Source: an uncultured Lachnospiraceae bacterium (GTDB lineage Bacteria; Bacillota; Clostridia; Lachnospirales; Lachnospiraceae). Taken from it: 55,823 nt of DNA. Location of the stretch: assembly GCA_902788555.1 (NCBI GenBank), contig CADAKQ010000016.1, positions 1 through 55,823 of the forward strand, written 5' to 3'. Below are positions 19,802-38,438 of the stretch, in pieces. Both the position numbers and the translations under genes were made by a program. Numbering within the stretch: position 1 is the first letter of the stretch; every line of letters begins with the position of its first letter. The notes under the pieces were generated by a model, which saw only the letters and a list, made by a program, of their open reading frames with translations, did not search any database and had not been told where the DNA came from.

Positions 19802-21304
19802 TTATAAACTATCTATAAATCTTTGGAAATATTTTCTTCCGTCTTCGGTAGACTTATATACTCCCGCGCACTCAAGTACCTTTGCAAACACCTTGCCTAT
19901 CTCATCCTGAACAATCTTATGGATATTGGATGCATTTACATTATCATAATTCTTCATCCACTCACTTGCCCACTCAGCATGCGAAGCAGTCTGCTCATCA
20001 GAGCTTAAATCACCGCCACTAAGTATGAGTTCTTCCAAACGAGCCATCTCACCCTTAAGTCTTGCAGGAAGCACTGCAAGTCCCATAACCTCTATAAGTC
20101 CGATATTTTCCTTCTTAATATGATGGTACTGCGGATGCGGATGATACTCGCCCATCGGATGCTCATCAGTAGTAATATTGTTACGAAGTACGAGGTCAAT
20201 CTCAAAAAGCTCTCCTCTCATACGTGCAATCGGTGTAATCGTATTGTGTGGAGTGCCGTCTGTCTCAGCAAAAATAAATGCCTCCTCATCAGTATAGCTT
20301 CTCCACTTACCTAAGATGTGGTCAGAAAGCTCCACGAGTCTTTCCGCGTCTTTTGCCTGAAGTCTTATAGTTGACAAAGGCCAGTTGATAATTCCTGCGT
20401 GTATATCCTCATAACCTGTAACTGTAAACTCCTTCTCATATGGAGCTCTTACCATAGGAAACTCATAATTACCGCCCTGGAAATGATCGTGGCTTAGGAT
20501 AGATCCGCCGACTATCGGAAGGTCAGCATTAGAGCCTGCCGTGTAATGCGGAAACTGTCCGACAAAGTCAAGCAGCTTCTTAAAGGTATCCTTATCAATC
20601 TTCATAGGAATATGCTTTTCGTTAAATATAATACAATGTTCATTATAATATACATAAGGTGAATACTGAAGATTGTACTTCTCACCGCCAAGCATAATAG
20701 GTATTATACGGTGATTCTGTCTGGCAGGATGTGAAAAATGTCCTGCGTAACCTTCATTTTCACGACAGAGGAGACAGCTTGGATAACCCGACTTCTTAGC
20801 CTGTCCTGCCTTAGCAATATCTCTCGGGTCCTTCTCCGGCTTGGAAAGATTGATTGTAATATCAAGATCCCCAAATTCGGTAGGTGACTGCCACTTCTCA
20901 TCCTTCTTAATTCTTTCAACTCTTATATAATTAGTGGCTCTTGAAAAATCATAATAATAATCGGTTGCTTCCTTTGGAGATTTCGCAAGATGCGTTGCAA
21001 ATTCTCTTCTTATCACCGAAGGTGCCGGTGTAAGAAGTCCCATAATCTTAGTATCATATAAATCCTTATAGGTTATGGTATCCTCAGACATAATTTTTTT
21101 CTCGAAAAGAACTGCCAGCATATCCTCAAGAATCTCAAAAAGCGGTCTGCCATCACTTTCAACCGAAGCTTCTATATATTCCTGTTCTTCAAATAATTCG
21201 AGCAGCTTGTTTCTTGTGTATATAATATCATCAGTATCAACAAGTCCCGCTTTTACACCATAATTCAAAAGCTCATCAATAAGTCTGCTTATCTTCTCAG
21301 TCAT
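19802..21304 (-). CDS. galT: Galactose-1-phosphate uridylyltransferase (type 2)
   Basis: Leloir pathway enzyme exchanging UMP between UDP-glucose and galactose-1-phosphate. The 500-aa length and motifs fit the Gram-positive GalT class 2 family (TIGR01239-like), not the shorter HPH-type enzyme of E. coli: VGGSILSHDHFQGGNYEFP holds the His cluster of the active site, and CLLCRENEGYAGH and HPARQNHRIIPI flank the nucleotide site. It is the last gene of the minus-strand galactan operon, 66 nt after the GH53 lipoprotein, with a GGGAGGAG RBS and a good terminator behind it. Confidence 0.96.
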   Translation of the reverse strand: MTEKISRLIDELLNYGVKAGLVDTDDIIYTRNKLLELFEEQEYIEASVESDGRPLFEILEDMLAVLFEKKIMSEDTITYKDLYDTKIMGLLTPAPSVIRREFATHLAKSPKEATDYYYDFSRATNYIRVERIKKDEKWQSPTEFGDLDITINLSKPEKDPRDIAKAGQAKKSGYPSCLLCRENEGYAGHFSHPARQNHRIIPIMLGGEKYNLQYSPYVYYNEHCIIFNEKHIPMKIDKDTFKKLLDFVGQFPHYTAGSNADLPIVGGSILSHDHFQGGNYEFPMVRAPYEKEFTVTGYEDIHAGIINWPLSTIRLQAKDAERLVELSDHILGKWRSYTDEEAFIFAETDGTPHNTITPIARMRGELFEIDLVLRNNITTDEHPMGEYHPHPQYHHIKKENIGLIEVMGLAVLPARLKGEMARLEELILSGGDLSSDEQTASHAEWASEWMKNYDNVNASNIHKIVQDEIGKVFAKVLECAGVYKSTEDGRKYFQRFIDSL

Positions 21305-21370: not shown

Positions 21371-23443
21371 CTACTTGGCATAAAGATAAAAATCATCCCA
21401 AGCACCCCAGCCTTTAGCTGCTGCCTTAACCTTAACGCCTATCGTAAGCTCGGTGCCATCCTCGGTTATAACTATATTATCTATCTCAGGATTATCCCAT
21501 TCCTGCCACTTGGTAACTCCGGTCTTTTGCTCAAGGCTCTCATCACCATACTCTGCGTAAAGCACAAAGCTTGCATCATCACCGCAATCGCCGCCTTCTA
21601 TATATGTTCCGAGAACATACTCTCCTGCGTCGAGTGTAACCGTCTGATATACCGTATATTCTATATCCTTTTCCGACCAGAAATGAAGACAATAAGCTCC
21701 GTCATGCACATTACTCGAATCATCCTTACGGCTTATGATATCTGAGTCAATAACCCACATACTCATATCCTCATCCTCAAAGCCGGGATTAAGCAGGAGA
21801 TTTTCCGCTAAAAATTTTACCGTAAATATGACCGGATATTCTTCTCCATCAACTTCAACCGTACCCTCTATGGCAACCTCTCCGGGTGTGGAAATATCTA
21901 CATTTGCAACACTATCTTCATCCCATATTATCGGTTTCTCAGATATCGTTCCATCATTATATCTTACATGTGCTGTCTCAGGTAAACCATAATATTCATT
22001 AACACCAACCACGATACCATCGGTTGTAACTGCCGATACCGAAAGCGGTGCAACTGCGCCTGTTCTGATATATTTATAAATCTTAGCAGAAGCAAGAGGG
22101 TGACCATAGAAATCGAATAATGCTTCATTATCCACTGCCGAACCGCCATAATACTCCGCCGCATCCTCATCATAATCTGATGCATAGCTTGATGCCCAGC
22201 CTGAGCCTTTTTCCTCCCATAGCTTCCTGTTGTACTCATAGACCTCATCAGGATAGTCCGCATCAGCATAAACACTCACAGGAATCCATGCAGGCTCCCA
22301 ATAGAATATACCTATACCCGCTTCACCGCAAAATGCCACGGCATTTGCAGCTTCTCTTATCGCATCGCACTGTCCCTGTACAGACACATCATAGTAAAAT
22401 GCATCTCCTGCCTTGCCCTCTGATTCGGTATTGCCCGAGCCGTCGCCATCCTCATATGTATAGATGTAAGAAGTCTCAACTATCATTACCTTCTTGCCAT
22501 ACTTATTGACGATAGTATTTAATATAGCTTTCATGCTTCCTACCTCACCATGCCAGTAAGGATAGTATGAGGAAGCAAATACATCATAGTCCACACCATA
22601 CTGCTCAAGGTATGGAGCATAAGCAGGATATGAACCCTTCTCAGGATTGGTAAAATGAATCGCTATAAGGATATCCTTGTCAAATTCTCTTACCGCTTCG
22701 CTGCCCGCCTTAAATAATGTACACATATCCTCCCATTCTGTCTCACCGCAGAAACCGGTCGTCGTCTCATTTCCAATCTGAACCATACCGACATCAACAC
22801 CGGCATCTCTAAGTTCATTTAAGGAATCCTCCGTATACATTTTTAAAGCAACCGCCTTTTCATCTACGGAAAAATCACTCCATGCCTTCGGAGCCTTCTG
22901 CTTGCTTGGATCAGCCCAAAAATCCGAATAATGAAAATCAATCAGCACACGCATGCCTGCATTGGTAGCCCATGTTCCTATTCTTTTGGCAGTTTCAATA
23001 TCATTGTTACCGCCACCGTAGGAATTACCATTCTCATCATAAGGGTCTACCCAGACTCTTATACGTGCATAATTTACACCACATTCATCATACAGGAAAT
23101 CAAAAAATCCCTGCTCGTCTAATTCATTTCCATTAAAATCATAATACTTTACACCACTGTCAAACTCAGCAGCAATCGAGGATAAATCTGCCCCGGTTAT
23201 AAAATCGTCCGACAGATTGTCAATCTTTTCAACAAATACATCTGCCTCTACAGATGTATCCTCAGAGGAAGTGCCCGTTGGCAGAGGGATTACCTCATTA
23301 TTGTCTGCATCGTCAGGGGATGCAACACTCTCAGTAGCAATTTCGGTTTCGCTATTATCTGATGCTTCCTTCTTACTGCAGCCTACAGCAGATAATGTAA
23401 GTGCGAAAACAAGAATTGCTGTCAATATTTTTTTTAATCTCAT
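21371..23443 (-). CDS. Extracellular endo-beta-1,4-galactanase (GH53) lipoprotein
   Basis: Cuts beta-1,4-galactan side chains of pectin (arabinogalactan I) at the cell surface. A 690-aa lipoprotein (lipobox LSAVGC, Cys22), acidic linker, GH53 barrel about 80-440 with acid/base Glu226 (MVQIGNET) and nucleophile Glu323 (VMIVETSY), a DFHYSDFWADP substrate loop, a bacterial Ig-like domain (about 465-545, STPGEVAIEGTVEVDG) and a C-terminal carbohydrate-binding-like sandwich (about 550-690, LLNPGFEDED...WDDFYLYAK) similar in layout to CBM61-linked GH53s. The ATG at 23443 is chosen: GGGAGA lies 10 nt upstream, whereas the longer frame would need a TTG overlapping that RBS. 27 nt after galK. Confidence 0.93.
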   Translation of the reverse strand: MRLKKILTAILVFALTLSAVGCSKKEASDNSETEIATESVASPDDADNNEVIPLPTGTSSEDTSVEADVFVEKIDNLSDDFITGADLSSIAAEFDSGVKYYDFNGNELDEQGFFDFLYDECGVNYARIRVWVDPYDENGNSYGGGNNDIETAKRIGTWATNAGMRVLIDFHYSDFWADPSKQKAPKAWSDFSVDEKAVALKMYTEDSLNELRDAGVDVGMVQIGNETTTGFCGETEWEDMCTLFKAGSEAVREFDKDILIAIHFTNPEKGSYPAYAPYLEQYGVDYDVFASSYYPYWHGEVGSMKAILNTIVNKYGKKVMIVETSYIYTYEDGDGSGNTESEGKAGDAFYYDVSVQGQCDAIREAANAVAFCGEAGIGIFYWEPAWIPVSVYADADYPDEVYEYNRKLWEEKGSGWASSYASDYDEDAAEYYGGSAVDNEALFDFYGHPLASAKIYKYIRTGAVAPLSVSAVTTDGIVVGVNEYYGLPETAHVRYNDGTISEKPIIWDEDSVANVDISTPGEVAIEGTVEVDGEEYPVIFTVKFLAENLLLNPGFEDEDMSMWVIDSDIISRKDDSSNVHDGAYCLHFWSEKDIEYTVYQTVTLDAGEYVLGTYIEGGDCGDDASFVLYAEYGDESLEQKTGVTKWQEWDNPEIDNIVITEDGTELTIGVKVKAAAKGWGAWDDFYLYAK

Positions 23444-23470
23444 AATTTCCAAATCTCCCAATGAGTATAT

Positions 23471-24763
23471 TTATGCCACCTTAATACCGCCGTACTTTCT
23501 TATCATAAGTACATTACATGAGCCTTCTCCGAACAAATCATCCATAGCCTTTTTGTACTGCTCAACGACATCATTTTTAACAAATGCCTGAATGGTTCCT
23601 GCAAAGCCGCCGCCATGTACTCTGGCAACGCCCTTATCACCGAGCACAAGCTCGCTTAAACAAAGACCTACAGATACATTCTGATGTTCAACATCATGAT
23701 TGGTATATACATTCTGAAGATACTTATACGAAGAATCTCCTGATGACTTAAAGAGTCTTAAGAATTCTTCAAAATCATTATCCTTCAATGCTTTAGCTTC
23801 AAGCACTGCACGCTCATTCTCCTCTGCAAAATGAAGCGCACGAAGTGCTGCTCTGTCGCCATAAGCTTCTCTAATCTTATTTATACCTGCAATAAGCTCC
23901 TTCTTATCCACATCGCGAAGGAACTCCTTACCGAAGCAGGAAGCCGCATTCTTCATCTCAACAGGTACTGCCGCATAATCCGGTGTAAGGTCTGCATGTG
24001 AGCCCTTTGTATCAGTTATACATAAGCTGTAACCTACCTTGCTTAAGTCGAATTCAACTCTGTCTATAACAGGCTCCTCCGGATTCTTAAAATCTATCTG
24101 GCATAGAGAACCTACCGAGCAAGCCATCTGATCCATAAGTCCGCACGGCTTACCGAAATATACATTTTCCGCATACTGTCCAAGCTTAGCTATCTCAACC
24201 GCATCTATCTTCATATCGTTGTAAAGTCCCGAAAGAATTGTTCCGATTATTGTCTCAAATGCAGCAGATGAAGAAAGTCCGGAACCGCTTAAGACATCAC
24301 TTGTTATATAGGCATCAAAGCCGCCTATATTATAGCCTGCATTCTTTACGCCATAGATTACACCCTTGATAAGAGCTACAGTTGTTCCTTCCTCGCTGTC
24401 AAGTTTTTCAATATTATTAAGAGGTATGGTGAGCATATCATATCCCTTGGATAACACTCTTACTGTATCGTTGTTTGCATTTCCGACTATCGCTATAGCA
24501 TCATCATTGATTGAAGCCGCAAGTACATTTCCATGCTGATGGTCTGTGTGGTTTCCGCCTATCTCGCTTCTGCCTGGTGCACTGTAAATCTCCACATCTT
24601 TTTCAGTATCGCCATCCGCAAATATACGTGCGTACTCAGAAAGCGCCTCCACATATCTTTCTCTTTGATATGAAAGCTTTGATACATCTACATATATATC
24701 CTTGATTTTTTCGTCTAATTTTCCCTCTTTTATATCAAGGGAAAGTGCTGAAATCTTATTCAT
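23471..24763 (-). CDS. galK: Galactokinase
   Basis: Phosphorylates alpha-D-galactose to galactose-1-phosphate, first Leloir step. A 430-aa GHMP kinase: galactokinase signature GRSEIGGNHTDHQHG at 64-78 (the usual GExxD variant becomes GGNHTD), GHMP ATP loop SGSGLSSSAAFE, and a C-terminal GGGFAGT loop (HGGGFAGTIQAF). About 30-40 residues longer than E. coli GalK because of an N-terminal helix extension, common in Clostridia. RBS AGAAAGGG. Sits between galE (87 nt) and the GH53 lipoprotein (27 nt). Confidence 0.96.
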   Translation of the reverse strand: MNKISALSLDIKEGKLDEKIKDIYVDVSKLSYQRERYVEALSEYARIFADGDTEKDVEIYSAPGRSEIGGNHTDHQHGNVLAASINDDAIAIVGNANNDTVRVLSKGYDMLTIPLNNIEKLDSEEGTTVALIKGVIYGVKNAGYNIGGFDAYITSDVLSGSGLSSSAAFETIIGTILSGLYNDMKIDAVEIAKLGQYAENVYFGKPCGLMDQMACSVGSLCQIDFKNPEEPVIDRVEFDLSKVGYSLCITDTKGSHADLTPDYAAVPVEMKNAASCFGKEFLRDVDKKELIAGINKIREAYGDRAALRALHFAEENERAVLEAKALKDNDFEEFLRLFKSSGDSSYKYLQNVYTNHDVEHQNVSVGLCLSELVLGDKGVARVHGGGFAGTIQAFVKNDVVEQYKKAMDDLFGEGSCNVLMIRKYGGIKVA

Positions 24764-24850: not shown

Positions 24851-25873
24851 CTATTCTACTGTATTGTATCCATCCGGATTCATGCTCTGCCACTTCCAGG
24901 AAGAAGCACACATTTCATCTATGCCGTACTCCGCTTTCCAGCCGAGCTCCTTAAGCGCAAGACTTGCATCCGAATAACATACCGGCACATCGCCTGCTCG
25001 TCTTGGCTTTATAACATAAGGTATCTCATGTCCGCACGCCTTACCGAAAGCCTTAACCACATCAAGCACGCTCTGACCGTTTCCTGTTCCGAGATTATAT
25101 ACCTTAACTCCCGGATTATCCTTTATCTTATTAATTGCAGCCACATGTCCTCTCGCCAGGTCAACTACGTGAATATAGTCTCTGATACAGGTTCCGTCAG
25201 GGGTATCATAATCGTCTCCGAATACTCCGAGCACCTCTCTTTTTCCGATTGCAACCTGAGCCACATATGGCACAAGATTATTCGGAATGCCCTTAGGGTC
25301 TTCACCTATAAGTCCGCTCTCATGTGCACCTATCGGATTAAAGTAACGAAGAAGTATCACATTCCAATCCTTGTCTGCCGTATGAAAATCCGTAAGAATC
25401 TGCTCTATCATATGCTTTGTCCAGCCGTAAGGATTGGTACATATCCCCTTCGGACACTCTTCTGTAATAGGTATAAATGCAGGGTCTCCGTAAACCGTGG
25501 CAGATGAAGAAAAGATTATATTTTTAACACCATGCTTTCTAAGTGCATCACATAGAGTAAGAGTTCCGCCTATGTTATTCTGATAGTATTCAAGCGGCTT
25601 CTCAACCGACTCACCTACAGCCTTAAGTCCTGCAAAATGAATAACACAATCTATTTTATTCTCATCCAAAACCTTATTCATAGCAACCGAATCACAGATA
25701 TCCGCCTCATAGAATTTGACCTTCTTGCCGGTAATCTGCTCTACCCTCTCAATAGCCTTAGGACTTGAATTATACAGATTATCAACGACGACAACCTCAT
25801 ATCCTTCATTTAATAATTCCACGCAGGTATGACTTCCGATATAGCCTGCTCCTCCTGTAACCAAAATTGTCAT
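24851..25873 (-). CDS. galE: UDP-glucose 4-epimerase
   Basis: Interconverts UDP-galactose and UDP-glucose, closing the Leloir pathway and supplying UDP-Gal for surface glycans. A 340-aa extended short-chain dehydrogenase with the Rossmann motif TGGAGYIGSHT (residues 6-16), the SSSATVYG catalytic Ser/Thr region and YGWTKHM (YxxxK). The fold and length are standard for GalE. RBS GAGGAGG is strong. A 120-nt gap separates it from the upstream GGDEF gene; I see no clear promoter or terminator there, so read-through is likely. Confidence 0.97.
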   Translation of the reverse strand: MTILVTGGAGYIGSHTCVELLNEGYEVVVVDNLYNSSPKAIERVEQITGKKVKFYEADICDSVAMNKVLDENKIDCVIHFAGLKAVGESVEKPLEYYQNNIGGTLTLCDALRKHGVKNIIFSSSATVYGDPAFIPITEECPKGICTNPYGWTKHMIEQILTDFHTADKDWNVILLRYFNPIGAHESGLIGEDPKGIPNNLVPYVAQVAIGKREVLGVFGDDYDTPDGTCIRDYIHVVDLARGHVAAINKIKDNPGVKVYNLGTGNGQSVLDVVKAFGKACGHEIPYVIKPRRAGDVPVCYSDASLALKELGWKAEYGIDEMCASSWKWQSMNPDGYNTVE

Positions 25874-27925: not shown

Positions 27926-27935
27926 TACAATCTCC

Positions 27936-29036
27936 TTAAAAATCTCTTATGGTAGAAAGTGCCGGTAATGCGTTTCCATCGTAGTCAAACAGTGCCTGAT
28001 TCGCCCATTCGTTTCCTCCCGGACCTTTCTCACCGGTAAACTCAAGTGCCGCCTCTGTAGCCCAGCCACAGCCCGGTACCGGTATCCAGCCCGGCTCCCA
28101 ATAGAAGAATCCAAGACCTCCGTCCACAGCCTTTATACGATTCATAACATCCAGCATAAAGTCAGCCTGTCCCTGCTTGGTCATAGGATATGTAAGCTTT
28201 TCAAGAAGCTCTTCTCTTGTCGCCATACCCTTAAGCTCATCCGCTGGTCTACCCTCATAGCTTCGGTAGTCCTCCATGCTAAAGCCCATGGAAACCTCAG
28301 CAACTACTATTTTTTTACCATATCTTTTTGCCATATCCTGCATATTAAATGAAAGCTCATCCAAAGTACCATGCCAGAACGGATAATAAGAAAGTCCGAT
28401 TATGTCAAAATCTTCTCCACGCTTGACAAAATTATCAAACCATTCCACATACATTTCATTTAATCCACCATTATCTAAGTGTATCATAATCGGTACGTTT
28501 TTATCAATAGCTCTTACCGCTCTAATTCCTGCATTTATAAATAATGCAATCTCATCAAAATTAGGCTTTAAACCATATGGCCATAAAAGTCCGTTAGTAA
28601 TTTCATTTCCGACCTGAACCATAGTAGGCGGAACTCCCTCATCATGCAGTCTTTTCATGGTTTCAAGAGTGAAATCATATACGGCTTCTTCAAGCTCCTT
28701 TACATTCATTCCCTTCCACGCCTTAGGGATTATCTGTTTTCCCGGGTCAGCCCAGAAATCACTGTAATGCAAATCGAGAAGTATCCCCATATCATGCGCC
28801 TTGGCACGTTTTGAAAGCTCTATGGTTTTATCTATATCATTGGTACCTGCTCCGTATGGATTACCATTTTCATCATAAGGATCATTCCAAAGTCTTAATC
28901 GCACATAATTTGTACCATAACTCTTAAGAATGTCAAGCAAGTCCCCTTCTTTTCCGTTATCATAATATCTTGCCCCACACTCTTCCTCTTCGATAAGTGT
29001 GGATACATCCATTCCCTTTATAAAGTTTTCCGTCAT
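27936..29036 (-). CDS. Cytoplasmic GH53 endo-beta-1,4-galactanase-like enzyme
   Basis: A 366-aa GH53 barrel without signal peptide or accessory domain, so it should act inside the cell on imported galacto-oligosaccharides. Acid/base Glu145 (MVQVGNEIT), nucleophile Glu247 (IVVAEVSM), DLHYSDFWADP and LSYYPFWHG substrate loops are all present, so it is probably active. The ATG at 29036 is preceded by AGGAGA at 7 nt; a longer in-frame extension upstream is only the translated hairpin DNA. It is clearly related to, but not identical with, the exported GH53 in this locus. 84 nt after the zinc-ribbon gene, 10 nt before the GGDEF gene. Confidence 0.9.
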   Translation of the reverse strand: MTENFIKGMDVSTLIEEEECGARYYDNGKEGDLLDILKSYGTNYVRLRLWNDPYDENGNPYGAGTNDIDKTIELSKRAKAHDMGILLDLHYSDFWADPGKQIIPKAWKGMNVKELEEAVYDFTLETMKRLHDEGVPPTMVQVGNEITNGLLWPYGLKPNFDEIALFINAGIRAVRAIDKNVPIMIHLDNGGLNEMYVEWFDNFVKRGEDFDIIGLSYYPFWHGTLDELSFNMQDMAKRYGKKIVVAEVSMGFSMEDYRSYEGRPADELKGMATREELLEKLTYPMTKQGQADFMLDVMNRIKAVDGGLGFFYWEPGWIPVPGCGWATEAALEFTGEKGPGGNEWANQALFDYDGNALPALSTIRDF

Positions 29037-29081
29037 ATCCGCTCTCCTTATATATATTACCTCGCATGCCTGCTTCGCAAA

Positions 29082-29111
29082 GAGCTCCGGCAGACCGCCC
29101 TGCCGAAGCTC
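29082..29111 (-). promoter_or_regulatory. GC-rich intercistronic stem-loop
   Basis: A 12-bp stem (29082-29093 with 29100-29111, one G-T) with a 6-nt loop lies 10 nt after the zinc-ribbon gene. Only three T follow, so it is not a clear terminator; it may slow decay of the upstream mRNA or partly attenuate transcription into the cytoplasmic GH53 and GGDEF genes. Confidence 0.7.
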
Positions 29112-29120
29112 CACATTATA

Positions 29121-29333
29121 CTAATCAAAATCTGTTATACGGTCATACATAACCTTGTAACGAAAACGTATCATTTCATTTTTTTCAAGTACATCCTTTT
29201 CGTTTCCTACATACTGACAGCGGATGCAGTAATACTCATCCTTGTCCTTGTCGTAGAACATATCTATGTCCAAATCCCTTAAAAAACAGGACGGACATCT
29301 ATAGTTTAATTTGCCTTTTCCACCTTGAGCCAT
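29121..29333 (-). CDS. 70-aa zinc-ribbon protein overlapping the sugar-enzyme gene
   Basis: Small protein with CPSC (residues 14-17) and CIRC (36-39) knuckles, the spacing of a zinc ribbon, and a charged C-terminal tail (RFRYKVMYDRITDFD). Its ATG lies inside the last codons of the 613-aa gene (28-nt overlap in another frame) and an excellent RBS, AAGGAGGT, sits 9 nt upstream, so it is translated and very likely coupled. No signal peptide. I do not recognise a family with known function. Its position suggests a cytosolic partner or regulator for the galactan enzymes, but that is inference. Confidence 0.8.
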   Translation of the reverse strand: MAQGGKGKLNYRCPSCFLRDLDIDMFYDKDKDEYYCIRCQYVGNEKDVLEKNEMIRFRYKVMYDRITDFD

Positions 29334-31147
29334 GTTGAAAATACCTCCTTAGCTTTTACCTGTTTTTTAACACCGAGTGTGAACATAGGTGAGAATGCAT
29401 ATCCCTCTCTTATGTAACAATCAGCCTCCTTAGACTCTGTCTTAAGCGAAACCTTTGTCTCTATGGCAGGTATGACTGCTTCGGCAGTTGTTGCGCCCTG
29501 CACATCTGCTTCACGGCACTTATATGCATAATCAATGCTCTTTTCCTCCGAGCCACCCTTAACCTTAAGTGTAATACCCGTCATATCTTCAGGATACTCC
29601 GTGGTTCCGTAGCAGGCTACCATATATTCATTTAAGGTAACCTCCGCATCAGGATTGCTCATTTCTAAGATATTTCTTTCTATCTGTATATCTGATGAGC
29701 CCTCCTTAAATATAACCTTAGTCTGAAGCTTAACCGTCAAATCATAAAACTCTATATCAACCGGATCAAGAGTAAGAGTTCTTACTCCGTTTTCCTCCGA
29801 AAAGCTTGCATGGGTTCTGCACTGGCATAAATCAACCTCTTCGCCATTATAGGAAAGCTTCGCACTTCTTACGGTACCCTCACCTGCATAATGTGTAAAA
29901 TATCCTGCTCTGTATTTTTCCTGTATAAGGAAAGGATAGGATGCATCCTGAACATGCTTTGTTCCTATACCAACCTCCCACTTAAGTTTAGCAGCATAAG
30001 GTCTAAGGTCAACGATAGCTCCACCCTGATCCATATTTACACAAGCTCTCATATATGGGTCAACATACCAGAAAAGCTGCTTGTTTGAACCATATAAAAT
30101 GTCCTTCCAAAGAGCACATTCAGGTTCGGTGTAATGCTTGTTTGCACGATAGAAATCTGCAAACTCAGCCATAGTCATATCAACAAGCTCTCCCTTTTTC
30201 TTAAGCTCTCCATAGTAAGCCATACCGTCCTCATAGGACTTCTTGAGAAGCTCATACGGTTGCTCCCAGCGGCCCATCTTGTTAAGCCAGCCCGGTCCAA
30301 CAAACATCATATTATAAGAATATCCGTTATTGTATTTTGCAAGATGTCTGTACTGGTCAATCAGGTTATAAAGATACGGATATTCCCAGGTCTTAGTATC
30401 GTAAATCATACCACGAAGTACATTCTGCGGATGAGTACCGAAGTTTGAACCGTTTCCGTCATAGCATGCAAGCAAATCTCTTGAAAGATGAGGTATGGCA
30501 ACTATACCGCTGTCCTCCTCTTCATTTGCTGCAGGTGCATGAGTATTCTGCTTGGAAGGTATCCAAGGTGCCCATGGTCCTCCGTCAAACAAGGTATACC
30601 AGGAATTATTGCAGGTATGATATGCCTTTGGTCCTTCCTCCCAGCAGGTAGCCACGGCACATTTTACCATCGGGTACTTTTCCTTTATGTAATTGGTAAG
30701 GTCTGCATCCATATAGTAGGAGCCTGTTGACTCAGGATAAAATCCGAACCTCTCGTAGAACTTACCGAATACATCATCTACTATCTGCTTTTTGTCCTCC
30801 ATATCAAACATCCAGATACAGAAATCCTTAGTCTTATATTTCTCACGGAATTCCTTACAAGGAAGTCCGAGCAGAGAAAGTGCTATCTCGTCTCCATATT
30901 TCTCGTGATGCTCCTTTGCAAGCTCGCATGCCTCATCATTGAAAAGTGAAGCATATGTCATCTGAATAGTAGTCTTAAGACCATTTTTATGCGCAGTCTC
31001 CTGCTGAAATTTGAATATATCGAGAGACTCTGTAAGAAGAGCCTTTCTGCCTATATCCTCCGCCTTGCCGTGTCCGGTTACCTTTTCGGCATACTCAGGA
31101 ACCATCTCAGGACGGTGTATAATATTTACTGCAAATGTTTTTTCCAT
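29306..31147 (-). CDS. Unassigned 613-aa protein, candidate glycoside-active enzyme
   Basis: A cytoplasmic protein (no signal) I cannot place in a named family. The first about 370 residues look like an alpha/beta barrel of the GH57/GH38/NodB style (FAVNIIHRPEMVPEYA, FYPESTGSYYMDADLTNY, CAVATCWEEGPKAYHTCNN, DGGPWAPWIPSKQNTHAPA, PHLSRDLLACYDGNG), rich in Trp, His, Asp and Glu as in a sugar site; the last about 220 look like a beta-sandwich (DLTVKLQTKVIFKEGSSD, LNEYMVACYGTTEYPEDM). Start at ATG 31147: AGGAGA lies 11 nt upstream; an 18-codon longer frame has no better RBS. It lies 57 nt after the permease gene and overlaps the zinc-ribbon gene. Role in galacto-oligosaccharide breakdown is inferred from context. 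Confidence 0.7.
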   Translation of the reverse strand: MEKTFAVNIIHRPEMVPEYAEKVTGHGKAEDIGRKALLTESLDIFKFQQETAHKNGLKTTIQMTYASLFNDEACELAKEHHEKYGDEIALSLLGLPCKEFREKYKTKDFCIWMFDMEDKKQIVDDVFGKFYERFGFYPESTGSYYMDADLTNYIKEKYPMVKCAVATCWEEGPKAYHTCNNSWYTLFDGGPWAPWIPSKQNTHAPAANEEEDSGIVAIPHLSRDLLACYDGNGSNFGTHPQNVLRGMIYDTKTWEYPYLYNLIDQYRHLAKYNNGYSYNMMFVGPGWLNKMGRWEQPYELLKKSYEDGMAYYGELKKKGELVDMTMAEFADFYRANKHYTEPECALWKDILYGSNKQLFWYVDPYMRACVNMDQGGAIVDLRPYAAKLKWEVGIGTKHVQDASYPFLIQEKYRAGYFTHYAGEGTVRSAKLSYNGEEVDLCQCRTHASFSEENGVRTLTLDPVDIEFYDLTVKLQTKVIFKEGSSDIQIERNILEMSNPDAEVTLNEYMVACYGTTEYPEDMTGITLKVKGGSEEKSIDYAYKCREADVQGATTAEAVIPAIETKVSLKTESKEADCYIREGYAFSPMFTLGVKKQVKAKEVFSTWLKVEKAN

Positions 31148-31204
31148 TATTATTAATCTCCTATATGTTTTGCCACTTGGATAATCCAAACGGCAGAGCA
31201 TTTA

Positions 31205-32056
31205 TTAACCCTTTACCGAACCGCCGGTTACACCTTCTACATAGTACTTCTGCATGATTATGAAGAGTATTGATATAGGAATAGATACCAAAAGTCCTCC
31301 TGCACAGAATACCGAGAAGTAGTTGTTTACAAGTGAACGGTTCAGCATATTGTAAAGACCGATAGCTACTGTCCAGTCGCTGGATATGCCTGAGTTAAGC
31401 ATAAGCTTTGCAAGTACGAAGTCACCCCATGGTATGAGGAACGAGCTTATAATCTGATAAACTATAATCGGCTTGCAAAGAGGAATTACGACCTTAATAA
31501 AAATTGTAAACTCCGATGCTCCCTCAACCTTCGCTGCCTCTCTTAAGGAAGCCGGTATGGTATCCATAAATCCCTTTACGATTAGATACCCGAGTCCCGA
31601 ACCGGCCGAGTAAACTATAATCATACCGAGGTGGCTGTTGGTAAGTCCGATAGACTTCATAACAAAGTAAACAGCTATCATCGAAAGTACGCCCGGGAAC
31701 ATATTCAAGATAAGTGAAAATGTCATTATCTTCTTTCTTCCCTTAAATCGCATACAACTGAATGCGTAGCTTACCATAAGTACAAATATAGTTGAGATGA
31801 TACATGTAAATATGGCTATAACAAGTGTATTCTTAAACCATGTCATGTATTGCACAACCGAGTCCGGATGTAAAAATATCTTCTTGAAATTATCAAGTGA
31901 CCATGAGGTCGGGAAGAAATGCGCCTTATTTATTCCCGGATATCCCGAGAATGCCGTTACAACAAGCCATAGTATCGGAACAAGCCATATAACAACGAGT
32001 AGTGCCAAAAAAATATGTGAAACTATTGAACCTATAATCTTTTTTGTTTTCGCCAT
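31205..32056 (-). CDS. ganQ: Galacto-oligosaccharide ABC permease, MalG/GanQ type
   Basis: A 283-aa binding-protein-dependent permease with six predicted helices and the EAA loop REAAKVEGASEFTIFIKVVIPLCKP (ATPase contact). C-terminal VEGVTGGSVKG is typical of MalG homologues. Its ATG overlaps the upstream permease stop (TAATG), so the two subunits are translationally coupled, with GAGGAGG as RBS. The gene set around it points to beta-galactan oligomers as substrate, as for GanQ of Bacillus; the symbol is by context. Confidence 0.88.
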   Translation of the reverse strand: MAKTKKIIGSIVSHIFLALLVVIWLVPILWLVVTAFSGYPGINKAHFFPTSWSLDNFKKIFLHPDSVVQYMTWFKNTLVIAIFTCIISTIFVLMVSYAFSCMRFKGRKKIMTFSLILNMFPGVLSMIAVYFVMKSIGLTNSHLGMIIVYSAGSGLGYLIVKGFMDTIPASLREAAKVEGASEFTIFIKVVIPLCKPIIVYQIISSFLIPWGDFVLAKLMLNSGISSDWTVAIGLYNMLNRSLVNNYFSVFCAGGLLVSIPISILFIIMQKYYVEGVTGGSVKG

Positions 32057-33528
32057 TATTGATACTCCTCCTCTCTGTCTCCTGCGATAAGCTTGGAGAA
32101 TGATATAATCGTAAATACCGCACAGATTATAAATACTATGATACCTATAACGGATGCCATCTTGTAGTTATAGTATTCATTTGTAAGCCTGAACAACCAC
32201 GTTACAAGAAGGTCAACCTCCTTGGCATTTGCATTTGCAAGTGCCTGATCCGGTGTAATATATACATCCTGAGTCAAAAGGTAAATTACGTTGAAGTTAT
32301 TAATATTCTTTACAAAGTCTGTTATAAGTGCAGGTCCCTGAATAAATAATACATACGGCATGGTTATCTTCCAGAAAATCTTCCACTTGCTTGCACCGTC
32401 AATTCTTGCACTCTCAAGCTGGTCGGTAGGTATATTCATAAGAACACCGGTTGCAATCAGCATCTGATATGGTATACCAACCCAGATATTTATAATTACT
32501 ATCATGAACTTAGCCCAGTGCGGATCGGTTAAAAACGGTATATAATTAAGATGCGAACTTACAAGTCCGATAGATTTAAGCCAGTCTGTAAATCCGATGT
32601 TGGAACAGATAGTATTTACTATGCCCTGGTCACCGAAGAAGTTTCTTACAAGAAGAAGGGTTACAAACTGCGGTACTGCTATCGCTACTATGAATAAGCT
32701 TCTCCACATCTTAGGAAGCTTTGTTGTTTTCTTATTTATTAGCATAGCAAGAAGTATACCGCCTATAAAGGTTGTGAGTGTTGCAAGAACCGCCCATGTA
32801 AGTGTCCATCCGAGTATCTTCTTAAATGCATATCCAAAATAGTTACCCATGCCTTCGGTAAACAGCTTCTTAAAGTTTGAAAAACCAACCCAGTCAAGAA
32901 GCTTATTAGGCGGCATATGATTCTGGTCGTAATTTGTAAATGCTATTGCTATAAGAACAAATATAGGAATAACATTCATAAGAATAATTCCAAGAGTCGG
33001 AAGACTTAAAAGTGTAAGATGGAATTTGTTTCCCACAATTGACTTAACATTTTCTTTATTGGTTTCAATATGCTGTCCGAATTCCTTCTGCTTCTGAAGC
33101 TCATAACAGGCCTTTATGTTATAAATGTAAAAGAGAATAAAACATACAATAATAAATAAGGCTATTATGGAATTGAGAAGAATAAGGAATGAATTATCAT
33201 AGTCATTAACTGTCTGCTGCATGGTAAGAGGGTCAAACACAGCTTCTCTTTGAACCGTTCCTAAGGTGCCGAATTTAGCAAGATTAGGAGCCGCATAAAA
33301 GATACACATAATTATGAAAGCTATTTCAATAAGTGTAACAAAGATTCCTTTAAGCCACTGCCCCTTAAATGTGTAACCTGCACCCATGAACAGAAGTGAG
33401 CATTTTACTCCGGCATCGCCCTTTACTACAGCTTTGCCAAAATCCGCAAAATACCTGCCTATACCCTTGAAGAAATTTGCAAAGCCCCTGCCCATGGCCT
33501 TGAACGGATTTTTCTTTTCTTCTTTCAT
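32056..33528 (-). CDS. ganP: Galacto-oligosaccharide ABC permease, MalF/GanP type
   Basis: A 490-aa permease, longer than MalG because of an N-terminal extension: residues 1-40 amphipathic/basic, then two helices (about 60-85 and 115-140) before the main MalF-like helices from about 170. EAA loop LESARIDGASKWKIFWKITMP near residue 410. Start is the ATG at 33528 with AGGAGA at 7 nt; 17 more codons in frame lack an RBS and overlap the hairpin. Partner of the MalG-type subunit immediately downstream. No ATP-binding subunit is encoded in this locus, so a shared MsmX-like ATPase elsewhere is expected. Confidence 0.88.
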   Translation of the reverse strand: MKEEKKNPFKAMGRGFANFFKGIGRYFADFGKAVVKGDAGVKCSLLFMGAGYTFKGQWLKGIFVTLIEIAFIIMCIFYAAPNLAKFGTLGTVQREAVFDPLTMQQTVNDYDNSFLILLNSIIALFIIVCFILFYIYNIKACYELQKQKEFGQHIETNKENVKSIVGNKFHLTLLSLPTLGIILMNVIPIFVLIAIAFTNYDQNHMPPNKLLDWVGFSNFKKLFTEGMGNYFGYAFKKILGWTLTWAVLATLTTFIGGILLAMLINKKTTKLPKMWRSLFIVAIAVPQFVTLLLVRNFFGDQGIVNTICSNIGFTDWLKSIGLVSSHLNYIPFLTDPHWAKFMIVIINIWVGIPYQMLIATGVLMNIPTDQLESARIDGASKWKIFWKITMPYVLFIQGPALITDFVKNINNFNVIYLLTQDVYITPDQALANANAKEVDLLVTWLFRLTNEYYNYKMASVIGIIVFIICAVFTIISFSKLIAGDREEEYQ

Positions 33529-33561
33529 GACATCTCCTCTTTTCTTATATTTTTTGAAAAT

Positions 33562-33604
33562 AATAGCCCCAGACGCCATCCGGCGGATGATGTATGAGGC
33601 TATT
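33562..33604 (-). promoter_or_regulatory. Intercistronic hairpin between binding protein and permeases
   Basis: Outer stem AATAGCC/GGCTATT (33562-33568 with 33598-33604) and inner stem CATCC/GGATG (33577-33581 with 33585-33589) lie in the 145-nt gap after the solute-binding-protein gene. No T run follows on the minus strand. Such hairpins commonly make the binding protein more abundant than the permeases by protecting its mRNA or attenuating read-through. Confidence 0.65.
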
Positions 33605-33673
33605 AGTTATTTGGGTTTTTTTGTTTTTATTTTTTTTCGTGAATCATTTTTATTTTTTATATACGTTTTGTAA

Positions 33674-34972
33674 TTACTGTACAGGAGCAGTTATACCTTC
33701 AACTGCATTGTCAAGTAATGTCTGAAGGTCTGTACCATCAGGATTTCCTGAGATAAGTGTAAGTCCAAGAGTATTTGCCGGCTCCCAGTAGTTGCCGCCA
33801 ACTCTCTGTGGTACTGCATAATCAGCCTGCTTAGCAAGTGCTGCTATTGCAGGATTTGACTGTACATCACTTGAAGCTGCTGCATTTGCATTTGCAGGGC
33901 CAAGGCTTCTTGCATTAAATCTTGCTACCTGATTTTCTTCGTTAGTTAAGAACTCAGCGAGAATCATAGCCCAACCAACGTTCTTAGAGTGTGAATTAAC
34001 ACCGATTAACTTGTATCCTGAGAAAGATGCCATCTGTACCTGCTTACCTGCTACAGTATAAGTAGGAAGCTTAGTTGCTGCATAGTTATCACCCCATGCT
34101 GCCTTGATTGTATCTGCATTCCATGTACCGCTTACTGCTGCTGCGATTTTGCCTTCTGTTACGCCTGTTACGATATCTGCATCATTTGCATTTACAAATG
34201 CGCTTGACTTTCCTATGTCGATAATTGCCTGAGCTACGTCAGTTGCTCCGTCTGCATTCCAAGTACATGAATTAGTTACACCATCATCATTAAGAGTTAC
34301 ATCATAACCTGCACCCTTAAAGAATGAGTAGTTATACCAAGCACCTGAAACCTCCATAGCAACCTGCTTGCCTGCTGCACCTGCAACCTCAAGCATCTTG
34401 TCAAGTGTCTCAACATCTGAATCTGAGAATACTGATTTGTCATAGTATAAGAAGTAACCGTTATCAGCTGTCATTGGGTAAGCGTAAAGCTTTCCGTCCA
34501 TAGAAGCTGCTTCAACAGCTCCTGCTAAGGTCTCAGCCTTTACATCATAAGTATAAGTGCTTACAACCTCCTGAAGTGCACCTGCATTTACAAGCTCGTT
34601 CATCTGGTCATCTGCAAAAGTAAACACATCTGCTGCTGCCTCGATATCTGTTAAAACTGTATCCTTTGCATCTGCCTCCGAACATGCACCAAGCTTGATA
34701 TCAAATGTTATGTCAGGATATTCCTTTTTGAAATCATCGATAAGTCCCTGAGTAAAATCCTGATCCTCTTCTGATGCCCAAACAGTAAGTGAAACAGTTC
34801 CTTCTGTTGCAGATATAAGATTGTCAACTGCTTCCTGATTTACTCCGCTGTTTGAGCCGGTTGTTCCTGATGAAGATGAAGAATCATTTTTCTTTTCATC
34901 CTTACCACAGCCTGTTAAACATCCGGCAACTAAGGTTGTCGCCATAGCTAACGCTAAAAATTTCTTTTTCAT
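33674..34972 (-). CDS. ganS: Galacto-oligosaccharide ABC solute-binding lipoprotein
   Basis: A 432-aa type 1 extracellular sugar-binding protein (MalE-like) with a lipoprotein signal; Cys18 (LVAGC) or Cys22 (CLTGC) could be lipidated. A Ser/Gly-rich linker (about 28-45) leads to SLTVWASEEDQDFTQGLIDDFKKEYPDI and KIAAAVSGTWNADTIKAAWGDNY, both usual in this family. First gene of the operon, directly behind a LacI-type operator/promoter and a GGGAGG RBS. Substrate assignment to galactan oligomers follows from GH53/GH42 neighbours; it could also bind other beta-galactosides. Confidence 0.9.
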   Translation of the reverse strand: MKKKFLALAMATTLVAGCLTGCGKDEKKNDSSSSSGTTGSNSGVNQEAVDNLISATEGTVSLTVWASEEDQDFTQGLIDDFKKEYPDITFDIKLGACSEADAKDTVLTDIEAAADVFTFADDQMNELVNAGALQEVVSTYTYDVKAETLAGAVEAASMDGKLYAYPMTADNGYFLYYDKSVFSDSDVETLDKMLEVAGAAGKQVAMEVSGAWYNYSFFKGAGYDVTLNDDGVTNSCTWNADGATDVAQAIIDIGKSSAFVNANDADIVTGVTEGKIAAAVSGTWNADTIKAAWGDNYAATKLPTYTVAGKQVQMASFSGYKLIGVNSHSKNVGWAMILAEFLTNEENQVARFNARSLGPANANAAASSDVQSNPAIAALAKQADYAVPQRVGGNYWEPANTLGLTLISGNPDGTDLQTLLDNAVEGITAPVQ

Positions 34973-35045
34973 TCTTTTACCTCCCTTGGGATTATTGTTT
35001 CATCCCTGTTTAGTTTTTATTGTTTCGAATCCGGCGCAACTTATA

Positions 35046-35063: not shown

Positions 35064-35070
35064 TAATATG

Positions 35071-35099: not shown

Positions 35100-35173
35100 C
35101 CCACTTTTTAAACTTTTTTCTTCTTTTTATTTATGATTAATTATTCTTATTTATGACTATCGGATTTGATTTA

Positions 35174-36178
35174 TTATTGAGTAGAGCCTTTTAGCAAAAC
35201 ATCATAGCTTAGTAAAAGCTTATTCTGAACAGTCCTGCCTTCAATCCTGTCAAATAATACCTTACATGCGGTTGCGCCAAGCTCCTTTGGATCATAACTG
35301 AGTGTGGTTATTGCCGGCTGGTTATTTTCAAGGATTGCACTGTTATAAAAGGACGCCACCTTTATATCACTCGGAATTTCAACTCCATCCTTTTTTAATT
35401 TTGCAAGCACATTTGCGCATATTCCGTCATCCATACACACAAGACATTCAGCACCGTTTCTTAATGCATCATCAACCGCTCTCTCAATACTTAGGGCATC
35501 ATCACTTCCGATATAGATAAGCTTTTCGTCCGGCTCAATCCCCTGTTCCTTTAACCCGAGCATAAAGCCATCCCTTCTGGTACGATTAACTACATGGTTA
35601 AGACTTCCTCCTATAAGAGCAAATTTTTTTATACCCTTCATAACAAGAATTGATGTAAGCTCTTTACAGGCTTTTATATGATCATTATCCACCTGAGTTA
35701 TATTTTTTATCTCAGTACTGCCTATTACAACAAAAGGAACTCCGCTCTTTTTTAAATATTCAACACTTAAATCATTCACAAGTGTTCTACCCAGAATTGC
35801 TCCATCAACCTTTTTATTGGTTATTATTCTCTTCAATTGATTAATATTATCATCGTATACCATAGATATGAGAATATCATAATTAAATCCCCCTGCAACA
35901 TCCGCTATTCCCATCATACACCTTTGAAAAAAAGGCAGCTCCGTAGCAACAGAATCTGCCGGAGTTACCCAGCATATGTTGTAGGTTTTTGATTGCGCAA
36001 GTCCTTTAGCCATTGGATTAGGCACATAATTATTTTCCTCAATATATTTTAAAACCCTTTCCCTTGTCTCATTACCTATTCTTCCCTTTCCTGATATAGC
36101 ACGTGAAACCGTTGTTTTAGATATATTGAGTGCTTCCGCTATATCAGTTATGGTGAGATTGTTATTCACAACAGCCAT
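35174..36178 (-). CDS. LacI-family transcriptional repressor of the galactan locus
   Basis: A 334-aa regulator with an N-terminal HTH (ITDIAEALNISKTTVSRAISGKGRIG, about 9-35), the hinge helix PNPMAKGLAQSKT, and a periplasmic-binding-like sugar domain (GAILGR, KKFALIGG, ECLVCMDDGICANVLAKLK). It lies between the two promoters that carry matching operators, and one operator also overlaps its own promoter, implying autoregulation. Likely released by galactose or a galacto-oligosaccharide (inference). AAGGAGA RBS 8 nt before the ATG. Confidence 0.92.
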   Translation of the reverse strand: MAVVNNNLTITDIAEALNISKTTVSRAISGKGRIGNETRERVLKYIEENNYVPNPMAKGLAQSKTYNICWVTPADSVATELPFFQRCMMGIADVAGGFNYDILISMVYDDNINQLKRIITNKKVDGAILGRTLVNDLSVEYLKKSGVPFVVIGSTEIKNITQVDNDHIKACKELTSILVMKGIKKFALIGGSLNHVVNRTRRDGFMLGLKEQGIEPDEKLIYIGSDDALSIERAVDDALRNGAECLVCMDDGICANVLAKLKKDGVEIPSDIKVASFYNSAILENNQPAITTLSYDPKELGATACKVLFDRIEGRTVQNKLLLSYDVLLKGSTQ

Positions 36179-36214: not shown

Positions 36215-36243
36215 TTTACAATACGAAAAAGTTATGTTATACT
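36215..36243 (+). promoter_or_regulatory. GH42 gene promoter
   Basis: Plus strand TTTACA (36215-36220), 17-nt spacer, TATACT (36238-36243), with the operator beginning only 3 nt after the -10. The leader to the ATG is about 115 nt. Confidence 0.72.
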
Positions 36244-36246
36244 TTG

Positions 36247-36264
36247 TGCGCAACCGATTGTTCA
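36247..36264. promoter_or_regulatory. LacI-family operator between lacI-type gene and GH42 gene
   Basis: TGCGCAACCGATTGTTCA, identical at 17 of 18 positions to the operator of the ABC/GH53 operon. It overlaps the start region of the plus-strand GH42 promoter and lies just downstream of the -10 of the divergent repressor promoter. A shorter palindrome TTGCGCAA (36283-36290) nearby may be an auxiliary site. Confidence 0.82.
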
Positions 36265-36269
36265 CTTTT

Positions 36270-36298
36270 AGACTATCACTAGTTGCGCAAACTGTCAA
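36270..36298 (-). promoter_or_regulatory. Promoter of the LacI-family repressor gene
   Basis: Minus strand TTGACA (36293-36298), 17-nt spacer containing TTGCGCAA, then TAGTCT (36270-36275). It fires through the shared operator at 36247-36264, which suggests autoregulation. Confidence 0.65.
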
Positions 36299-36365
36299 GA
36301 ACAAAATAATAAATGTGACAAGGCTCACGTCCTATGACACAAAAATGCAATGGAGGTTATTATAT

Positions 36366-38438
36366 ATGAAGACTAATGATTTTTTATTTGGAGCGGCTTA
36401 TTATGAAGAATATATGCCGTATGAACGTACAGAAAAAGATTTTAAGCTTATGAAAGAAGCCGGCATAAATGTGATACGAATAGCCGAGTCCACCTGGAGT
36501 ACATGGGAACCAAGCGACGGAGTTTTTGATTTTTCTCATCTTAAGCATATGCTTGAATGTGCCGAAAAGTATGATTTAAAGGTTATAATAGGTACCCCTA
36601 CCTACGCTATACCTTCATGGCTTGCAAAAAAATATCCGGATATCATGGCTTACGGAAAAAACGGACATGAACTTTACGGACACAGGCAGCTATTCGATAT
36701 AACCAATCCCGATTATCTAAGATATGCTGAAAGAATTATAAGAAAGCTTATGGAAGTGGTAAAGGACAGTCCACAGGTTATCGGTTATCAGCTTGACAAC
36801 GAAACACGCTCTGCCGGCGCCGCATCAGAGGCAACGCAGAAGCTTTTTGTTAAAAAGCTTATGAAGAAATATCCTGACATAGAAGAATTCAACCGCGAAT
36901 TCGGTCTTGATTATTGGAGTAACCGCATATCCTCATGGGAAGATTTTCCTGATATAAGAGGTACGATAAACGGTAGTCTGTCCGCAGCATATAAGAGGTT
37001 CCTGCGCGACTGCATAACCGATTTCCTTACATGGCAGGCAGGCATAGTACGCGAATATATGCGCGAAGGACAGTTCATCACTCATAATTTTGATTATTCA
37101 TGGTGTGGCTACTCAGTAGGTATACAACCTGAGGTAGACCAGCATTCCGCTGCTAAATGTATGGACATAGCAGGTTGTGATATATATCATCGCATGCAGG
37201 ACTATCTGGATGGTTCAACTATAACATTTGGCGGAGCCGTCGCCCGTTCATTAAAAAAGGGCAATTATCTTGTCCTTGAGACAGAAGCTCAGGGAAATGT
37301 CGAATGGCTTGCCTATCCGGGACAGCTTCGACTTTCAGCCTTTAGCCATATAGCTAACGGTGCAAGCAGTGTTATGTACTGGAACTGGCATTCCATTCAT
37401 AATGCAATTGAATCCTACTGGAAGGGAGTTTTAAGCCATGACCTTACACCTCATGCCACTTATGAAGAGATTAAGAATTTCAGACATGAACATATACCGA
37501 TTGAAGCTAAGATTAAGAACCTTAAGAAAAAACCATCTGTAGGAATTCTCGTTGATAATGCAAGTCTTACAGGACTTGATGAATTTCCTATAAGTGAAGA
37601 GCTTAATTATAATGCTATATTAAGATGGTTTGCGGATAGCTGCCATGAGATGAATATCGAATATGATTTGTTGTACAAGGAGGACATACTTAGCAAGAAT
37701 ATCTGTTTAGGTTCCGATGATGCTTCAGATTCAGAAAATGATACTTTAGGAAACAGTTATCTAAGTAAATACAAGCTCCTGATCGTTCCTGCTCTTTACT
37801 CAGCTTCGGATGATGTACTTCTTTGTATAAAGGATTATGTAAGAAGCGGCGGTCATCTCCTGCTGGGCTTTAAGAGTGCATTTTCCGATGACGAATTAAA
37901 GATTTATCACGATGCACAGCCTCATCTTCTGACAGACTGTATAGGCGCAACATATGATATGTTCACCATACCGAAGAATGTTAATATTAAATTCACTTTA
38001 GACAAATTCAATGCAGAAAATATATATCCGGCTAAAGAATGGATTGAGCTTGTAACTCCAACAACGGCTGATGTCTGGGCATACTATAATCATCAGTTTT
38101 GGGGTGATTATGCGGCGATTACCCACAATTCATACGGCGAGGGCACAGCCACATACATAGGATGTTATACCGAGAAAAAAGCTCTAAGGGCTGTCCTCAC
38201 TAAGCTTTGTCCTATAGCAGATATTCCTATGACCAGTCTGTGCCTGCCTATAATTAAAAAGACCGGAATTAATGAAGCGGGCAAATGCATAACCTTTTAC
38301 TTTAACTACTCTTCTGATGTTCAATCCTTTACATATGACGGTTCAGGTGGCACCGAGCTTTTAAGAAGCACTCCGATAGAATACGGCGAAACCGTAACAC
38401 TAAGACCTTGGGATTTAATTATAGTCGAAACAAAATAA
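36366..38438 (+). CDS. ganA: Beta-galactosidase (GH42)
   Basis: Intracellular enzyme releasing galactose from beta-1,4-galacto-oligosaccharides. The 690-aa length is usual for GH42. Catalytic acid/base is Glu146 (YQLDNET); the nucleophile is in VLETEAQGNVEW (Glu305, or less likely Glu307). Barrel to about residue 390, then a trimerisation-like Rossmann domain (SVGILVDNAS...LLLGFKSAF) and a C-terminal beta domain. Start: ATG at 36366 with GGAGG 8 nt upstream; an in-frame stretch further upstream covers promoter DNA and is not coding. The only plus-strand gene here, divergent from the repressor and sharing its operator with it. Symbol by homology of role to Bacillus GanA. Confidence 0.94.
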   Translation: MKTNDFLFGAAYYEEYMPYERTEKDFKLMKEAGINVIRIAESTWSTWEPSDGVFDFSHLKHMLECAEKYDLKVIIGTPTYAIPSWLAKKYPDIMAYGKNGHELYGHRQLFDITNPDYLRYAERIIRKLMEVVKDSPQVIGYQLDNETRSAGAASEATQKLFVKKLMKKYPDIEEFNREFGLDYWSNRISSWEDFPDIRGTINGSLSAAYKRFLRDCITDFLTWQAGIVREYMREGQFITHNFDYSWCGYSVGIQPEVDQHSAAKCMDIAGCDIYHRMQDYLDGSTITFGGAVARSLKKGNYLVLETEAQGNVEWLAYPGQLRLSAFSHIANGASSVMYWNWHSIHNAIESYWKGVLSHDLTPHATYEEIKNFRHEHIPIEAKIKNLKKKPSVGILVDNASLTGLDEFPISEELNYNAILRWFADSCHEMNIEYDLLYKEDILSKNICLGSDDASDSENDTLGNSYLSKYKLLIVPALYSASDDVLLCIKDYVRSGGHLLLGFKSAFSDDELKIYHDAQPHLLTDCIGATYDMFTIPKNVNIKFTLDKFNAENIYPAKEWIELVTPTTADVWAYYNHQFWGDYAAITHNSYGEGTATYIGCYTEKKALRAVLTKLCPIADIPMTSLCLPIIKKTGINEAGKCITFYFNYSSDVQSFTYDGSGGTELLRSTPIEYGETVTLRPWDLIIVETK

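Follow-up and report, generated by a model that had tools for sequence, protein, structure and literature searches.

A 613-amino-acid protein of an uncultured Lachnospiraceae bacterium (hereafter X613) is encoded by an intact minus-strand gene (29306..31147, 613 codons) in a complete type I galactan locus, and its gene overlaps that of a 70-aa zinc-ribbon protein. We propose, with a probability of roughly 45%, that X613 is the catalytic part of a cytoplasmic oligosaccharide-processing enzyme made up of two proteins. X613 would represent a new GH57/GH38/NodB-like family and would cleave or transfer glycosidic bonds. A role in the processing of imported oligosaccharides is suggested because the locus, the fold class and the conserved acidic residues of the protein all point there; we likewise infer the catalysis itself, the bond cut, the acting residues and the binding of X613 to the zinc-ribbon protein. 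All coordinates refer to the 55,823-nt stretch of DNA that was analysed, hereafter the window.

Galactan locus and overlapping gene pair

The initial annotation placed a 613-aa enzyme candidate at 29306-31147, and the intact reading frame, its orthologues and the excess of synonymous over nonsynonymous differences bear this out. The plus-strand reading of the same interval is full of stops and non-coding by translation. A Shine-Dalgarno-like GGAG lies 10 nt 5' of the start ATG at 31147. The mechanically called frame is longer (631 aa, with an earlier start); we prefer the 613-aa start because in the alignment the orthologues start there or close by. In a scan of contigs, X613 is encoded in all of the best 80 of at least 577 confirmed stretches with 83-99% identity, one copy (L051) being interrupted by a contig end, and in the eight loci compared pS ranges from 0.37 to 0.88 and pN from 0.010 to 0.117. 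The orthologues, the 80 loci and the ratio of pN to pS together rule out a chance or artefactual reading frame. In every one of the 71 loci that allowed a comparison of the two, X613 is better conserved than GH53 (median identity 84% vs 65%, median difference 20 points), and in 55 of 55 it is better conserved than MalG, a comparison that is biased in favour of X613 because the loci were chosen by X613 similarity.

The setting in a complete galactan operon is likewise borne out, since two GH53 enzymes, GH42, an ABC importer, a LacI regulator and the gal genes together make up a complete type I galactan locus. On the minus strand, upstream of X613, are found the LacI-family regulator (35174..36178; PF00356, PF13377), an extracellular solute-binding protein (33674..34972; PF13416) and two ABC sugar permeases that we label MalF-like (32056..33579) and MalG-like (31205..32056; both PF00528). 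Downstream on the same strand follow the zinc-ribbon gene (29121..29333), a cytoplasmic-type GH53 endo-galactanase (27936..29114; PF07745, E 3.9e-122), for which ATG at 29036 is the more likely start and no signal peptide is evident by eye, and a protein in which Pfam finds a LacI-type sugar-binding domain together with a GGDEF domain (25994-27925). The latter is succeeded by a UDP-glucose 4-epimerase-like gene (galE, 24851..25873) and a galactokinase-like gene (galK, 23471..24763), both labelled by eye, a second GH53 that has a Big_4 domain and, by eye, starts like a lipoprotein (21371..23461), and the galactose-1-phosphate uridylyltransferase gene galT (19802..21304; PF01087, PF02744). A GH42 beta-galactosidase is encoded divergently on the plus strand (36216..38438 as scanned, with the mechanical frame starting at 36126; PF02449). 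A scan of 27700-36400 for promoters and terminators gave no signal above that of shuffled sequences. The protein at 25994-27925, in which the LacI-type sugar-binding domain is fused to a GGDEF diguanylate cyclase and a helix-turn-helix match is absent, has homologues in 10 of the best 80 of at least 577 loci and is possibly a cytoplasmic sugar-sensing cyclic-di-GMP enzyme. Elsewhere in the window, a 1013-aa membrane protein with YfhO and GtrA/DPMS domains is encoded at 7845-10886 on the minus strand.

As to the immediate neighbours, the two permeases (BPD_transp_1) upstream and the cytoplasmic-type GH53 downstream stand as first described, and the gap between X613 and GH53 is filled by the 70-codon zinc-ribbon gene, which had been missed and turned out to be a stricter companion of X613 than GH53 (27 of 27 genomes, vs 23 of 26 for GH53). 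The gene starts, after an AAGGAGG motif, with an ATG located in the final 28 nt of the X613 gene, so that 25 coding nt at the end of X613 belong to both genes. Among the best 80 of at least 577 loci, 76 extend 350 nt or more downstream of X613; of these, all but L047 (75 of 76) carry the gene there, and the two-CxxC pattern is likewise present in 75 of 76. The start position is identical in all 75 loci (72 ATG and 3 GTG codons), a Shine-Dalgarno-like motif lies within 20 nt of it in 74, and pN is below pS in all 75 with the overlapping codons left out. The four cysteines of the two CxxC pairs (C13, C16, C36 and C39) are invariant in 8 of 8 aligned rows. The protein gives nothing over the cut-off in Pfam and NCBIfam and no match in PADLOC; its sub-threshold resemblances include zinc ribbons of the DnaG and TFIIB types.

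The co-occurrence of the two genes is strict also at the level of genomes. With a query of eight rows, four of which come from the 200 sampled family genomes, strong zinc-ribbon matches (E <= 2.6e-29) were obtained in 27 of the 200, namely the 26 with a close X613 orthologue and one (G030) with a 39% relative; every one of them overlaps an X613-type gene by position, and none of that strength occurs in the 173 genomes outside the X613 clade. Two weaker matches (~5e-5 to 7e-5) lie inside longer frames, one in an X613 genome and one in another. The zinc-ribbon gene also stands behind a 40% relative (L121) and a 39% relative (L117) of X613, which shows that the pair is not confined to galactan loci, as these relatives belong to other sugar loci; the pair thus appears to be older than the galactan setting. 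Because the genes overlap, co-occur strictly and recur in different sugar loci, the observations point to a functional pair, and probably a complex, of X613 and the zinc-ribbon protein.

Distribution and distant relatives

Matches to X613 were found in 29 of 200 genomes sampled from its own family, the Lachnospiraceae, comprising 26 close orthologues (75-100% identity; in G029, two contigs each contain part of the gene) and three more distant relatives. The order-level sample gave 7 matching genomes of 295, its own included, and the phylum-level sample gave its own genome alone (1 of 398). The two nearest relatives among the best 80 of at least 577 contig loci, both 99% identical, are titled Lachnospiraceae MAGs from roe-deer stomach. 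GH53 is present anywhere in 73 of these 80 loci; where more than 1.5 kb flanks X613 on each side (69 loci), a GH53 gene lies no farther than 900 nt from X613 in 62. Among the 200 family genomes, GH53 occurs in 23 of 26 with X613 vs 19 of 174 others (Fisher p ~1e-15, uncorrected for relatedness).

Three genomes carry X613 without any GH53 (G015, G057 and G148, the last listed as 99% complete). A gene matching the Melibiase profile is located near X613 in G015 and G148, and genes resembling GH42 and GH2 by eye in G057. In the GH53-free loci of G015 and G148 (L123 and L125), X613 and the zinc ribbon follow genes that look by eye like permeases; L123 also encodes a 2209-aa protein with FIVAR, Big_2 and F5_F8 domains. 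At L058 X613 and the zinc ribbon stand alone, with recognisable galactan genes absent within 10 kb on either side, and three further loci (L084, L091 and L109) are near-minimal units of X613, zinc ribbon and GH53, no GH2 or GH42 homologue being detected in the stretches searched. A genome of the same genus listed as 100% complete (G180) has neither X613 nor GH53 nor the zinc ribbon, for which reason the module looks as if it had been acquired or lost in one piece. Two loci titled Muribaculum/Muribaculaceae (L034 and L110) carry X613 galactan loci of Lachnospiraceae type, perhaps through errors of binning or naming. X613 had no match in plasmids and no confirmed relative in three scans of viral contigs, on which basis we reject a mobile or phage origin; a role in defence is rejected as well, PADLOC giving no match for either X613 or its partner.

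The distant relatives fall into those with 39-40% identity to X613 (L027/L117 and L121) and a second group with 15-19% identity in the multiple alignment (L118, L119, L120 and L122). The two groups are homologous, since a profile built from the second group alone retrieves X613 orthologues with E-values down to 8.7e-15. In the neighbourhoods scanned, the L117 relative adjoins an alpha-L-fucosidase; that of L121 lies near a GlcNAc 2-epimerase-type protein, an MGH1-like glycoside hydrolase and a GH2; that of L119 near a GH127 catalytic domain; and that of L122 near a BNR-repeat protein and DUF4838, which places four of six distant relatives in carbohydrate loci. The L118 relative lies among housekeeping genes (by eye), and that of L120 on a 4.3-kb contig. 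For the four relatives of the second group, short stretches on the downstream side were inspected, and no zinc-ribbon gene was found in them. The L118 (7568-9985) and L122 (6568-8928) relatives contain a CHB_HEX_C_1 domain, the latter also an F5/8C domain, and Pfam matches are absent over their barrel part, which suggests another unnamed barrel group.

Family searches, predicted fold and candidate active site

No family could be assigned to X613 when it was first read, and the searches lead to the same result. Against Pfam at E <= 10 it gave one match (DUF5437, E 0.082), against NCBIfam and PADLOC at E <= 1 none, against PHROGs at E <= 1 one (E 0.16), and against PDB sequences calmodulins alone (E 0.035 and above) among the best 60 of 107 matches; the calmodulin, DUF5437 and PHROG identities are treated as chance. 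A confident match to a non-carbohydrate family, named in the initial annotation as the outcome that would speak against a sugar enzyme, did not turn up in any of the families searched. Matches to PF03065 (GH57; none in its own genome, the control matching in 9 of 14), PF01074 (Glyco_hydro_38N; none in its own genome) and PF01522 (Polysacc_deac_1) are absent from X613, and so is PF12979 (DUF3863, gathering score 27 bits), which appears below that score in one of the four second-group relatives (13.2 bits, E 0.039) and in none of 100 genomes, where the control likewise matched nowhere. By hhalign, the X613 profile aligned with sets of GH57 (12 of 16 loci used), GH38 (11 of 12) and CE4 proteins (10 of 14; the remaining loci fell to a length filter or had no ORF) no better than with seven control families that are unrelated to it. 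For this reason we reject a direct sequence relationship with any of these three groups and claim similarity of fold alone. As judged by Pfam, NCBIfam, PHROGs, PADLOC and PDB sequences, X613 apparently forms a new family in a known superfamily; membership in a recently named CAZy family is conceivable. Among beta-galactosidases, PMC11739564 names GH147, GH154, GH165 and GH173 as recent families. Openly licensed papers yielded no literature on DUF3863/3864, none on topic by title that mentions 3LM3, and none on GH53 with a zinc ribbon or on the X613 pair.

Two models of modest confidence were obtained for X613 (mean pLDDT 65.5 for the full length and 59.0 for the barrel only), the model alignments A4 and A7 holding sequences of 83-88% and 88-95% identity. 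They suggest an (alpha/beta) barrel at about residues 5-340 and a mutarotase-like beta-sandwich at about 424-611. In Foldseek, the full-length model matched by E-value first GH57 1k1w (E 8.7e-8, TM 0.24, rmsd 20.2) and then GH38 7ufr (TM 0.20, rmsd above 20), followed by YidC periplasmic domains and galactose mutarotases, which correspond to the C-terminal sandwich; the best 50 matches listed do not include 3LM3. The barrel-only model matched 3LM3 first (E 1.5e-7, 17% identity, TM 0.47/0.46, rmsd 7.4), then, at ranks 2-10, chains of polysaccharide or peptidoglycan deacetylase entries and, at rank 12, the GH57 4-alpha-glucanotransferase 1k1x. A sequence profile of nine relatives also had 3LM3 as its first PDB match (E 0.039, colinear over 255 profile positions), with a YPS...PAQ motif common to both; the second-group profile alone had no match in PDB. 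Two weak and largely separate lines, barrel Foldseek and the nine-sequence profile, thus agree on 3LM3 in that both put it first. With moderate confidence the predicted fold class is GH57/GH38/NodB-like, in agreement with the barrel and C-terminal sandwich expected from the first reading, and X613 probably shares its architecture with enzymes that cleave or deacetylate sugars.

Conserved acidic residues had also been expected in homologues, and they extend to the distant ones: E87, D147, E/D170, D224 and E/D328 are acidic in 9 of 9 superfamily rows, and at D147, E/D170 and D224 this conservation reaches relatives with as little as ~15% identity. Barrels of this kind carry their active sites on the side after the strands. 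In the model D147 follows strand 4 (140-143), E170 strand 5 (163-166) and D224 strand 6 (216-219), the placement of E170 and D224 being uncertain since both lie in segments with pLDDT below 50 in both models. D147 presumably sits at the position of the GH38 Asp and GH57 Glu nucleophiles. In the alignment with 3LM3 the D224 position is kept as Asp, and D147 and E170 are not kept.

The same matches lend something to the idea that X613 is a carbohydrate deacetylase, esterase or other non-glycosidase sugar enzyme, which would strip substituents from imported oligosaccharides and so open them to GH53 and beta-galactosidase. All barrel matches at ranks 2-10 are titled as deacetylases, 3LM3 itself as a "putative glycoside hydrolase/deacetylase", and such an activity would fit a helper of GH53. 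However, X613 lacks PF01522, its CE4 profile signal is not above the controls, and a barrel followed by a C-terminal sandwich is what the GH57 and GH38 matches show. The classical metal triad of CE4/NodB deacetylases is Asp-His-His, and it is not evident by eye in the X613 alignments (A1, A3). We regard this alternative as unlikely.

Proposed function and comparison with known systems

X613 could also be read as a non-catalytic sugar sensor, a degenerate barrel that would bind the imported sugar, with the zinc ribbon as an effector that binds nucleic acid or protein and regulates the operon. In favour of this, X613 is strictly paired with the zinc ribbon, which below threshold shows, among others, resemblances to the DnaG and TFIIB types. 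The persistence of the pair without GH53 and in other sugar loci is consistent with this idea. The operon, however, already has a LacI regulator, the acidic residues are retained across the superfamily, and a sensor would be expected to diverge, yet the median identity of X613 exceeds that of GH53 in loci that were, admittedly, picked by X613 similarity; we consider a sensor improbable, and on a par with a deacetylase. A phosphorylase, transglycosylase or epimerase for galactobiose or galacto-oligosaccharides, for which we know of no reaction of this type, would suit the near-isolated units in which GH2 and GH42 went undetected (L084, L091 and L109) and the glucanotransferase as top full-length match, but beta-galactosidase genes could sit elsewhere in those genomes, and we hold this to be the least probable case. 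The likeliest reaction is cleavage or transfer of glycosidic bonds, with deacetylation and sensing next and phosphorylase-type chemistry last.

For a two-protein oligosaccharide-processing enzyme, the following scheme can be drawn. The ABC importer would bring in beta-1,4-galacto-oligosaccharides, X613 and the cytoplasmic GH53 would shorten or modify them, and GH42 together with galK/E/T would finish galactose. X613, a putative distant relative of PDB 3LM3 in the glycoside hydrolase/deacetylase superfamily, would cleave or transfer glycosidic bonds via D147, with E170 and D224, and the zinc-ribbon protein made from the overlapping gene would probably bind it as a structural or regulatory subunit. 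In gut and rumen Lachnospiraceae, the usual account of GH53 galactan loci has GH53 act first, beta-galactosidase second and the Leloir pathway last; the conservation of X613 above that of GH53, with a strict zinc-ribbon partner, suggests a step missing from this picture. More tentatively, X613 and its zinc ribbon may be the first described obligate two-subunit carbohydrate enzyme of the NodB/GH57/GH38 superfamily, a new family at CAZy level with a small subunit of its own. The order to which this bacterium belongs would have put it to use in loci for galactan, fucosides and other oligosaccharides, and in galactan loci it would add a step on galacto-oligosaccharides beyond those of GH53 and beta-galactosidase. 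The partner had been overlooked by ORF length cut-offs, and the pair offers a testable object for enzyme discovery in the use of pectic galactan, possibly including a new CAZy family.

Galactan loci of Roseburia and E. rectale combine GH53 with ABC transporters and LacI, as does the X613 locus, and an arabinogalactan locus is described in R. hominis and R. faecis (PMC5320581); the portions of that paper available to us name neither an X613-type protein nor a zinc-ribbon gene, and its figure legends colour hypothetical genes white.

Among known enzymes, NodB/CE4 deacetylases (3qbu, 1z7a, 3rxz, 3s6o) are similar to X613 in the barrel, whereas X613 has an extra predicted C-terminal sandwich, no PF01522 and no evident metal triad. 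The GH38 alpha-mannosidase 7ufr (Bl_Man38A) is its second full-length match and shares an Asp after strand 4, in GH38 the nucleophile; X613 differs in its size (613 aa vs frames of roughly 1000 aa for many of the GH38 proteins found) and in the lack of PF01074. GH57 (1k1w/1k1x), the top full-length match, combines a barrel with a C-terminal sandwich, as the models suggest for X613, and an HRP motif near the X613 N-terminus resembles the HQP motif of that family, but X613 lacks PF03065, the TM-score is low, and Asp147 presumably stands in place of the Glu nucleophile. The predicted barrel of X613 resembles by Foldseek that of 3LM3, which is BDI_3119 of Parabacteroides distasonis and probably a DUF3863/DUF3864 protein.
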